From the NCBI GenBank assembly GCA_937861115.1, contig CALMBD010000014.1:1-41253 (forward strand): a stretch of 41,253 bases of DNA, read 5' to 3'. Position 1 is the first letter of the stretch; every line of letters starts with the position of its first letter. This DNA is from an uncultured Bacteroidota bacterium (GTDB taxonomy: Bacteria; Bacteroidota; Bacteroidia; Chitinophagales; Saprospiraceae). Shown here one piece after another: positions 35,943-41,175 of this stretch. The notes under the pieces are model-generated. The model saw only the letters and a list, made by a program, of their open reading frames with translations, did no database searches and was not told where the DNA came from. A program made the translations under genes and the position numbers.

Positions 35943-36461
35943 ATGGGCATCGCAAAACCATTCAACCTCCAGGCCTGGATCGACGAAAACCGCCACCTGC
36001 TCAAGCCGCCGGTAGGCAACAAACAGATCTACGTCGGGAACGACGATTTTATCGTCATGATCGTCGGCGGCCCCAATGGCCGCAAGGACTACCACTGGGA
36101 GGAAGGCGAAGAACTTTTCTACCAGTTGGAAGGCGACATTCAGGTGAAGATCATCAACGAAGACGGCAAACCGGAAACCATCGACATCCGGGAAGGGGAG
36201 ATGTTCCTGTTGCCTCCGCGCATCCCGCACTCGCCGCAGCGCCCGGCAGGCACGGTCGGCCTCGTGCTCGAACGCACCCGCAACGAAGGCGAGGTGGACA
36301 AACTGTTGTGGTTCTGCGACAACTGCGGCGCCAAATTGCACGAGGCGGGGTTCCCGCTCAAGGATATCGGCACCCAGATCAAACAGGCCATCGGCGAATT
36401 TATGGATGATGAAAACGCGCGTACCTGCAAACAATGCGGCACGGTAATGCCGAAATCGTAA
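35943..36461 (+). CDS. haaO: 3-hydroxyanthranilate 3,4-dioxygenase
   Basis: Opens the ring of 3-hydroxyanthranilate to give the precursor of quinolinate, in the kynurenine route from tryptophan to NAD. The 172-residue cupin keeps the iron ligands His51 and Glu57 (YHWEEGEELFYQLEGD) and His96 (PRIPHSPQRP), and the substrate-binding Arg47. A second, rubredoxin-like metal site of the bacterial enzyme is present: Cys125 and Cys128 (FCDNCGAK) with Cys162 and Cys165 (TCKQCG). The N-terminus IAKPFNLQAWIDENRHLLKPPVGN is typical. Other kynurenine-pathway genes are not in this window. Confidence 0.95.
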   Translation: MGIAKPFNLQAWIDENRHLLKPPVGNKQIYVGNDDFIVMIVGGPNGRKDYHWEEGEELFYQLEGDIQVKIINEDGKPETIDIREGEMFLLPPRIPHSPQRPAGTVGLVLERTRNEGEVDKLLWFCDNCGAKLHEAGFPLKDIGTQIKQAIGEFMDDENARTCKQCGTVMPKS

Positions 36462-36467
36462 CACCCG

Positions 36468-37553
36468 ATGAGCGACTTTGTAGAAACCTATCGCAACGTT
36501 ATAGTTCAGATCGCAACGCCCAACAGCACCGGCACGGGCTTTTTCCTGCGCAACCGCGGCCTGATTGTGACCAACCACCATGTCGTGGAGGGCAACCGCG
36601 CCGTTGTGGTGGAGGGGGCAAAGTTTCCCAAACAACTCGCCAATGTGCGCTACACCGATCAGCGTTACGACCTGGCATTTCTCGACGGCCCCGGCGGCGA
36701 TATCGATCTGCCGGAGGTACGGCTCGGTGTGGGGAAAGCCCTTCGTGAACGCGATCCGGTCACGGCAATGGGACACCCTTTCGGCTTGAAGTTTTCAGTA
36801 AAAAGCGGTATTGTTTCCAATACACGGGAAGTCATGAACGGCATCCCGTACCTCCATATCGACGCAGCCCTGAATCCGGGCAACAGCGGCGGTCCGCTGG
36901 TCGACAACGACGGCGAGATCGTCGGCATCAATACTTTTGTCATCCGCGACGGCGACAATACCGGTTTTTCGCTGCCGGTCGGCTTCCTGCAGGAATCGCT
37001 CGACGGTTTTTTGCAACTGGATACGGACAACGCCTGCCGCTGTCCGGCGTGTATGAACATCGTTACGGAAAAAACCGTCGACAAAGACTTTTGCACTTTT
37101 TGCGGCAATCGTGTGGAATTGCCCTCCGCTGTCGACGAATACGCGCCCTCGGGCGTCCCGAAAACGATCGAGTTGCTCATCGGAAAGGTGGGCCACGATG
37201 TAGCGCTCAGCCGCTGCGGTCCCAATGCCTGGGAGATCAGGCAGGGCAGCGCCAAGATCATCATCACTTACCACGACAAATCGGGGCTTATCTCCGCCGA
37301 CGCCGTGCTTTGCCAGTTGCCCAAGGATAACATCAAACCCCTGTACGAATACCTGCTCCGGCAGAACTACAGCAACGAGGCACTCACCCTGAGCGTGCAC
37401 GACCAGGACATCATCCTGTCGCTGCTCATCTACGACCGCTACTTGAACGAGGAAACCGGGCAGTCGATGCTGGCCAACCTGTTCGACAAAGCCGACTATT
37501 ACGACGATATTCTGGTGGAGCAGTATGGCGCGACGTGGAATGTGGAGGATTGA
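36468..37553 (+). CDS. Trypsin-like (S1C) protease fused to zinc ribbon and YbjN/chaperone-like domain
   Basis: The 361-residue protein lacks a signal peptide or membrane segment and should be cytoplasmic. Residues 1 to about 185 are an HtrA-like protease: His38 (VTNHHVVEG), Asp68 (RYDLAFLDG) and Ser140 (LNPGNSGGPLVDN), with the oxyanion GNSGGP intact. There is no PDZ domain. Residues 190-213 form a small zinc ribbon (Cys192, Cys195, Cys209, Cys212). The remaining 145 or so residues (IELLIGKVGHDVALSRCG, AKIIITYHDKSGLISADAVL, LPKDNIKPLYEYLLRQNY) resemble YbjN/type III-chaperone-like alpha/beta domains, which bind proteins. The combination suggests a regulated protease with its own adaptor. This last step is inferred. 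Confidence 0.85.
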   Translation: MSDFVETYRNVIVQIATPNSTGTGFFLRNRGLIVTNHHVVEGNRAVVVEGAKFPKQLANVRYTDQRYDLAFLDGPGGDIDLPEVRLGVGKALRERDPVTAMGHPFGLKFSVKSGIVSNTREVMNGIPYLHIDAALNPGNSGGPLVDNDGEIVGINTFVIRDGDNTGFSLPVGFLQESLDGFLQLDTDNACRCPACMNIVTEKTVDKDFCTFCGNRVELPSAVDEYAPSGVPKTIELLIGKVGHDVALSRCGPNAWEIRQGSAKIIITYHDKSGLISADAVLCQLPKDNIKPLYEYLLRQNYSNEALTLSVHDQDIILSLLIYDRYLNEETGQSMLANLFDKADYYDDILVEQYGATWNVED

Positions 37554-37579
37554 GGTGTGATATAAAATCGGCGCCGGAG

Positions 37580-37609
37580 TTTTGTTTTTCTGAAAAACCG
37601 CTACTTTTG
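37580..37609 (+). promoter_or_regulatory. ileS promoter
   Basis: TACTTTTG at 37602-37609, identical to the his promoter's -7 box. TTTG at 37581-37584 is 17 nt upstream, shorter than the usual 19-21. The leader ATG begins 5 nt after the box, exactly as in the his operon. Confidence 0.75.
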
Positions 37610-37614
37610 CGGCC

Positions 37615-37674
37615 ATGTTACATCCGATCATTTCCAGCAGCATTATTATTATTCGTCCCGGTGCGCACACCTGA
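37615..37674 (+). CDS. Ile-rich leader peptide of ileS
   Basis: A 19-codon frame from ATG 37615 to TGA 37672-37674, reading MLHPIISSSIIIIRPGAHT. Six of 19 codons are Ile, including four ATT codons in a row (37642-37653). It lies between a promoter and an intrinsic terminator directly before the gene for isoleucyl-tRNA synthetase, the enzyme that charges the tRNA these codons need. The function is inferred by analogy with amino-acid operon leader peptides: shortage of Ile-tRNA would stall ribosomes here and raise ileS transcription. I have not seen a name for this element. Confidence 0.83.
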   Translation: MLHPIISSSIIIIRPGAHT

Positions 37675-37699
37675 CGCGGTAAGGCTGTTGGAAAAACAG

Positions 37700-37734
37700 A
37701 AACCCCGGCAAGTGTGCAACTGGCCGGGGTTTTT
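37700..37734 (+). terminator. ileS attenuator terminator
   Basis: AAACCCCGGC (37700-37709) pairs with GCCGGGGTTT (37723-37732), with a run of five T (37730-37734). A candidate competing pairing joins GCACAC (37665-37670, end of the leader frame) with GTGTGC (37712-37717), and may extend through 37658-37662 with 37719-37723. A small hairpin, CTGTT/AACAG (37685-37697), lies just before. The hairpin is directly visible; the competition is inferred. Confidence 0.83.
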
Positions 37735-37773
37735 GATTGGGAAAATAACAACGAACAACAAGCGATAAATATA

Positions 37774-41175
<3,402 letters not shown>

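Follow-up and report, generated by a model that had tools for sequence, protein, structure and literature searches.

The ileS upstream region of the window

Is the isoleucyl-tRNA synthetase gene (ileS) of an uncultured member of the Saprospiraceae controlled by a short peptide encoded just upstream, and how far does such control extend among its relatives? The question is raised by an Ile-rich frame directly before ileS in a contig of 41,253 nucleotides, which as a whole is called the window here, and for which the original prediction was a leader peptide attenuator. Leader peptide attenuation of synthetase genes is exemplified by Escherichia coli pheST with its pheM leader, and leader peptide control has been little studied in the Bacteroidota. 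The predicted elements of the locus are as follows:

37581..37584 (+): candidate −33 element TTTG (sequence; consensus as in the parts of PMC7366714 covered)
37602..37609 (+): −7 box TACTTTTG (TAnnTTTG; sequence; box position as in the parts of PMC9723704 covered)
37615..37674 (+): leader peptide frame, MLHPIISSSIIIIRPGAHT followed by stop codon TGA; 19 sense codons, six of them Ile
37627..37632 (+): Ile codons 5-6 (ATC ATT; sequence)
37632..37641 (+): region 1, the 5' strand of the putative shielding helix P1, TTCCAGCAGC, pairing with 37684-37693
37642..37653 (+): Ile codons 10-13 (four times ATT), the proposed stall site (sequence; Ile run aligned among relatives)
37664..37680 (+): region 2, the putative antiterminator strand across the leader stop codon, core GCACAC at 37665-37670
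37684..37693 (+): 3' strand of helix P1, GCTGTTGGAA, pairing with TTCCAGCAGC
37703..37729 (+): terminator hairpin, regions 3 and 4 (fold and comparison)
37704..37718 (+): partner of the antiterminator strand inside the terminator hairpin, core GTGTGC at 37712-37717
37730..37734 (+): terminator U-tract, TTTTT (sequence)
37774..41175 (+): ileS, isoleucyl-tRNA synthetase, ATG at 37774 (Pfam tRNA-synt_1 and Anticodon_1 domains)

The 19-codon frame with six Ile codons, four of them ATT in a row, is present at 37615-37674 as originally predicted, and the −7 box before it, the intrinsic terminator after it and ileS as the next gene were all found at the places claimed (37602-37734, ileS from 37774). 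The Ile richness had been called hard to explain by chance, and this was borne out: among 20000 dinucleotide-shuffled versions of 37554-37773, 8 contained a frame of 8-45 codons in which 5 out of 8 were Ile, a figure which applies to the frame alone, as promoter, terminator and proximity to ileS were not part of the criterion. The RNA from 37610 to 37745 has a fold z-score of −4.75, with none of 200 shuffles equally stable. A simple terminator scanner reported no terminator in 37400-37900, which is probably explained by its loop limit of 3-8, since this excludes the interrupted stem of the window. A leader covariance model, with the window sequence among those used to build it, matched 37615-37736 with an E value of 3.1e-6, the sole match at E ≤ 0.1 in the window's genome. 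The genes 5' of the attenuator encode a 3-hydroxyanthranilate dioxygenase (3-HAO, 35943-36461) and a trypsin-like protease (36468-37553).

Distribution of predicted ileS leaders in Saprospiraceae

Among labelled records, those nearest to the window belong to Saprospiraceae. We expanded the analysis to 150 Saprospiraceae genomes, 142 of which had ileS matches, and inspected 130 ileS upstream regions (30 + 100) after checking their orientation. Frames with an Ile run (8-45 codons, 5 Ile in 8) were present in 51 of the 130, or 50 after removal of L137, which was dropped as false as it is without a terminator, while the same scan for any other residue gave 0-8, the reverse strand gave 10 and mononucleotide shuffles gave 17/1300. 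When the rule was relaxed to 4 Ile in 8 but a terminator required, 54/130 regions scored in Saprospiraceae versus 0/60 in the other families of the class. Together with 13 named loci (143 upstream regions in total) this yielded 58 leaders, 54 of which, one being a duplicate, have a terminator (hairpin followed by at least four T) 18-38 nt past the leader stop codon; the terminator rule was failed by L006, L033 and L036. L098, which carries the leader of the cultured Phaeodactylibacter luteus KCTC 42180, was omitted from the alignment as a duplicate of L030, L078 and L102 were dropped for want of usable sequence upstream, and 53 leaders were aligned. The weakest frames are exemplified by G057, with three Ile codons of which two are adjacent.

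When finds made with the covariance model are included, 65/150 family genomes bear a leader and 85/150 were not counted as bearers; two of the 15 genomes added in this way (G015 and G122) stop at the contig edge, with the downstream ileS out of view. In the window's genus 27/42 genomes match the model at E 0.1, and 25/42 were accepted as real leaders on inspection (17/42 not counted as bearers), a count for which L432, L436 and L437 were judged non-leaders and L434 was left out. Thirteen of the 14 named loci near the window or labelled as its family also match the model, five of these being model-building sequences or a copy of one, and L035 does not match. Some loci appear to come from the same genome (L424/L103, L428/L101, L429/L032 and L433/L034), and relatedness was treated by nearest-neighbour comparison rather than with a tree.

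Outside the family, no Ile-run frame (5-in-8 rule) was present at any of the 64 named ileS loci that were taken as other families by label and 52-58% identity, and the covariance model gave nothing at E ≤ 0.1 for these 64 loci and 60 further other-family regions (drawn from 100 other matched genomes, orientation checked). Three candidates for outside leaders were rejected: L072 because of its position downstream of ileS, L402 because it maps to the opposite strand, and L407 (ileS strand, E 0.11) because its hairpin comes with no Ile frame. In other families the order-wide search gave weak matches (12 genomes, E 0.001-0.008), and of the two inspected, L285 proved to be no leader, while L286 precedes ilvD; of the class-wide matches outside Saprospiraceae, L347 precedes ilvE-ilvD and L348 is not a leader, as is also the case for the weak Saprospiraceae matches L277, L278, L282 and L283. 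By these comparisons the predicted ileS leader is lineage-bound and patchy, with many Saprospiraceae lacking a detectable one. The expectation that Ile-rich frame, candidate promoter box and terminator are kept in relatives held within Saprospiraceae (65/150 genomes, 25/42 in the genus; a strict box before 33/53 leaders), whereas the attribution of the leader to Bacteroidota was too broad, as none was found at the outside ileS loci tested.

Terminator, antiterminator and helix P1

The predicted parts of the attenuator and their conservation are established by sequence and comparison. The terminator is 93% paired, with both sides changed in 13 of 17 pairs. In the 53 aligned leaders the bases across the stop codon are complementary to the 5' arm of the terminator, with a consensus of CAATCTG with CAGATTG, represented by GCACAC with GTGTGC in the window and by TTTACACCTG with CAGGTGTAAA in L040. 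The duplex has a mean of −14.2 kcal/mol with a leader's own partner versus −11.0 kcal/mol with swapped partners, so that swapping among leaders costs about 3.3 kcal/mol, and 0/5000 permutations were as low; a control strand (48 nt before the leader) used as antiterminator gave −7.0. Swapping with the three nearest relatives still costs 2.95, with the own antiterminator better in 42/53 leaders (Wilcoxon 1.7e-7) and the relatives' partners pairing better on average in 11/53. Antiterminator cells are 79% paired, versus 68.5% in column shuffles and 22-42% in slid controls; the number of double-sided pair changes is unremarkable (6 versus 4.8 in column shuffles, 115/500 of which reach 6).

A further helix, P1, is predicted to form between the Ile-codon region and bases 3' of the stop codon (window: TTCCAGCAGC with GCTGTTGGAA; many other leaders: ATTAGCA with TGCTAAT). 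In the partner-swap test 0/5000 permutations were as good, and in comparison with neighbours' partners the own partner was better in 36/53 leaders and the neighbours' better on average in 17/53. P1 is the weakest helix, being 73% paired versus 69% in column shuffles and up to 59% in slid controls, and its double-sided pair changes are likewise unremarkable (5 versus 3.9 in column shuffles, 81/500 of which reach 5).

Judged from the alignment, the antiterminator strand co-varies with the terminator 5' arm even in comparison with the nearest relatives, which is the strongest support for the attenuator, and the predicted antiterminator and terminator pairings are mutually exclusive. The antiterminator strand did not feature in the original prediction, and the pairings add to its reading as an attenuator; a leader peptide attenuator controlling ileS is thus supported by conserved parts and by co-varying pairings in relatives. 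The co-variation is strong enough to guide point mutations.

Candidate promoters upstream and downstream of the leader

The window elements match the −33 and −7 promoter consensus of Bacteroidota given in the parts of PMC7366714 covered, and a box at −12 to −5 is described for a flavobacterium in those of PMC9723704. With TACTTTTG at −12 to −5, transcription would begin at about 37614, the base adjoining the ATG, and the 5' UTR would measure about 1 nt; it is because of this box-based position that a near-leaderless start is predicted in the window. Genome-wide, 3.7% of 5' UTRs are shorter than 10 nt and 5.5% of mRNAs are leaderless according to the covered parts of PMC7366714 and PMC9723704. 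Counting promoter boxes solely as strict TAnnTTTG, a box is present within 60 nt before 33/53 leaders versus 1.4 in shuffles (20/53 being without a strict box), and the spacing from box to start codon is 4-7 nt in 10 of these 33, for which a near-leaderless start is likewise predicted.

A second strict box is found between the terminator and ileS in 43/53 leader loci (3.3 expected from shuffles), and 58/81 family loci without a scored leader likewise have a box no more than 110 nt from ileS (4.6 expected), from which we infer that the ileS promoter is the older element and that the attenuator module was placed in front of it later. In the loci that have it, the second box could let ileS escape, and so blunt attenuation. 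There is no strict box between the terminator and ileS in the window, and therefore ileS would depend there on the attenuated promoter alone.

Folding model and proposed mechanism

In model folding of the RNA before the terminator 3' arm is made, a ribosome on the Ile codons leaves a mean of 11.3-11.6 antiterminator pairs, versus 0.6 with the ribosome at the stop codon (11.8 versus 0.0 in the window), the latter result being partly a consequence of the ribosome mask itself. In the absence of a ribosome the mean is 5.7 antiterminator pairs, but the window has 0.0, as P1 is predicted to hide the strand there. The geometry of the leader and the model folding both fit a choice of structure set by the position of the ribosome. 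Once the hairpin is complete, the terminator prevails whatever the ribosome state (0.97-0.98 mean probability, with L150 as an exception), and the switch would therefore have to be kinetic; the order of folding is represented in the model by a single snapshot.

We consider it highly probable that this is a classical ribosome-mediated transcription attenuator, which senses charging of tRNA-Ile and controls ileS, and we infer where transcription starts, how the ribosome stalls, how termination occurs and how the leader responds to Ile, as follows. RNA polymerase would start near 37614 with a ribosome following along the leader frame. When Ile-tRNA is plentiful, the ribosome would reach the stop codon and cover the antiterminator strand (about 37664-37680), upon which the terminator would form and transcription would end near 37734. 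When Ile-tRNA is scarce, the ribosome would wait at the ATT run (37642-37653) and open P1, and the freed antiterminator strand would pair with the terminator 5' arm while the 3' arm is still to be transcribed, allowing read-through into ileS. If the window leader RNA is not translated, the antiterminator strand is predicted to stay shielded by P1. The cell thus probably makes more IleRS when charged tRNA-Ile runs short.

Predicted specificity for isoleucine

The 53 leaders contain 326 Ile and 9 Val residues, with the Ile codons divided over ATT (217), ATA (62) and ATC (47). Mixed Ile/Val leaders were found before ilvD-ilvB or ilvE-ilvD at L275, L276, L286, L288, L289, L293 and L347, of which L286 and L347 fall outside Saprospiraceae, and in a five-genome scan an Ile/Val leader with a terminator preceded 3/7 true ilvD loci. 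Leader composition tracks the gene, because ilvD leaders in some relatives mix Ile and Val. These ilv leaders of Bacteroidia resemble the ileS leader in having an Ile-rich frame followed by a hairpin terminator, in some cases with an NIIISIxII core, but differ in the admixture of Val and in their biosynthetic target; they are a possible source of the ileS leader. At the other synthetase loci (PF00133, PF00587 and PF01409 in five genomes, 14 residue groups), no frame with a terminator was found except at ileS, in a scan that left out L317 and counted frames without a terminator as chance, and ileS may be singled out among synthetase genes for leader control.

The window genome (G000) and its genus-mates G040 and G141 have no ilvD (PF00920) match, and G040 and G141 are also without a leader match. 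The lack of ilvD suggests that these genomes are auxotrophic for branched-chain amino acids and that the window genome must import them, so that raising IleRS could be a main lever there. This idea is not general, since most leader-bearing genomes have ilvD: among the 150 genomes there are 53 with both leader and ilvD, 12 with a leader only, 46 with ilvD only and 39 with neither. A general link of the leader with Ile auxotrophy was accordingly rejected, as leaders are commoner in ilvD-bearing genomes (Fisher 0.0005, uncorrected for kinship among genomes).

Alternative explanations

Two other readings are in our view improbable. The nascent Ile-rich chain could act as a TnaC-like arrest peptide which stalls the ribosome together with a small molecule, e.g. 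free isoleucine, in place of a stall due to slowly decoded Ile codons, and the recurrence of a core N-I-I-I-S-I-I-I among many leaders would fit this. However, the non-Ile residues vary (the window clade has IISSSIIII), the number and position of Ile shift among leaders, and the conservation of the central AGC codon can be explained by its place in helix P1; no conserved peptide beyond the sensed codons, as in TnaC, was found among the leaders compared. It is similarly improbable that ileS is mainly driven by constitutive tandem promoters, with the box after the terminator in charge, the terminator idle and the short upstream transcript a relic or small RNA. The second boxes of 43/53 leader loci and the boxes near ileS in 58/81 loci without a scored leader are in line with such an arrangement, but the window has no such box, and the pairings co-vary even among near relatives, suggesting a switch under selection.

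Two further explanations are very unlikely indeed. The terminator hairpin begins 150 nt past the end of the protease gene (36468-37553) and might belong to that gene, with the frame beside it by chance, yet such a frame is rare in shuffles (8/20000), and frame, terminator and antiterminator recur together before ileS in other genomes. A T-box or other tRNA- or ligand-binding RNA would have precedent in the T-boxes before ileS in Firmicutes. T-boxes also precede ileS in Actinobacteria (covered parts of PMC1262725). Against this, a scan of the whole window with Rfam gave no match at gathering scores, and the predicted transcript consists of a 60-nt frame and a terminator.

Related systems

Having weighed these, we return to the classical attenuator, which has parallels at other synthetase genes. 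As at ileS, pheST combines a peptide rich in the cognate residue, a terminator and an aminoacyl-tRNA synthetase gene, but with Phe rather than Ile and in another lineage. In Streptomyces, classical attenuators were predicted before the synthetase genes trpS2 and leuS (Seliverstov 2005, covered parts of PMC1262725); these are similar in arrangement, but concern other residues and another phylum, where ileS has T-boxes. In bacilli, His leader peptides precede two hisS paralogues (Naville and Gautheret 2010, covered parts of PMC2965389), which is again a synthetase gene preceded by a leader peptide, here among bacteria that commonly use T-boxes, but differs in the residue (His) and the phylum (Firmicutes); neither the word ileS nor Bacteroid- occurs in the main text of PMC2965389. 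Closest by phylum is Flavobacterium psychrophilum, where leader peptide attenuation was inferred before amino-acid operons and structured 5' UTRs were described for synthetase mRNAs; this is the same phylum and type as the ileS leader, but concerns biosynthesis operons, and ileS is not named in the parts of PMC9723704 covered. The arrangement had been put forward as undescribed, and this stood in so far as no ileS leader peptide was found among the matches listed in the open-access literature. With this leader, the short list of synthetase genes for which leader peptide attenuation is established or predicted gains ileS as a gene and Saprospiraceae as a lineage.

Genes between the probable attenuator and ileS

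The ileS attenuator is very likely real, and its most interesting extension is a slot for cargo genes behind it. While 14/25 leader loci in the window's genus lead straight into ileS, 11/25 have at least one intervening gene (L414, L420-L424, L427-L430 and L433), as have L268, L271, L280 and L281 elsewhere in the family. The cargo genes are read on the ileS strand, directly behind the terminator, with an overlapping opposite-strand frame making the strand less sure in L420 and L422, and three of the 11 loci (L421, L422 and L427) end before ileS. A DUF1016/YhcG nuclease was found at L103 and L430, and by tblastn (60-82% identity) at L421, L423, L424 and L427; further cargo in the genus comprises an Mrr restriction enzyme, a weak HEPN-like match and SUKH-4, and elsewhere in the family Abi_C, Uma2, DUF433 with DUF5615, SoFic, and endonuclease V with an IS200-like transposase (all Pfam and PADLOC, with PADLOC labels, e.g. 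PDC-S02, denoting candidate defence). The slot is a hotspot of inserted genes, several of which resemble defence or toxin genes. The cargo proteins of L032, L422 (272-aa form) and the first of L414 had no Pfam match.

No strict box was present between cargo and ileS in 12/12 rows where both were located (10 distinct; ileS was not located in 2/14 cargo rows), and 6/14 rows (L032, L034, L433, L101, L414 and L271) have a box within 75 nt before the cargo. The attenuator might, as a tentative and on balance doubtful proposal, be the control head of a variable operon of cargo and ileS. If so, IleRS and a defence gene would be induced jointly whenever charged tRNA-Ile is lost, be it through starvation, an inhibitor or phage, and the defence-like genes behind the attenuator make this link between starvation and defence testable.

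With regard to individual loci, the stretch just before the cargo of L430 repeats the ileS start of that locus (25 of the first 28 bases), possibly as a remnant of an insertion event at the 5' end of ileS. In L269, L270 and L271 the ileS leader is present in tandem, and a Fic (SoFic-like) gene lies between two identical leader copies (G056; L270).
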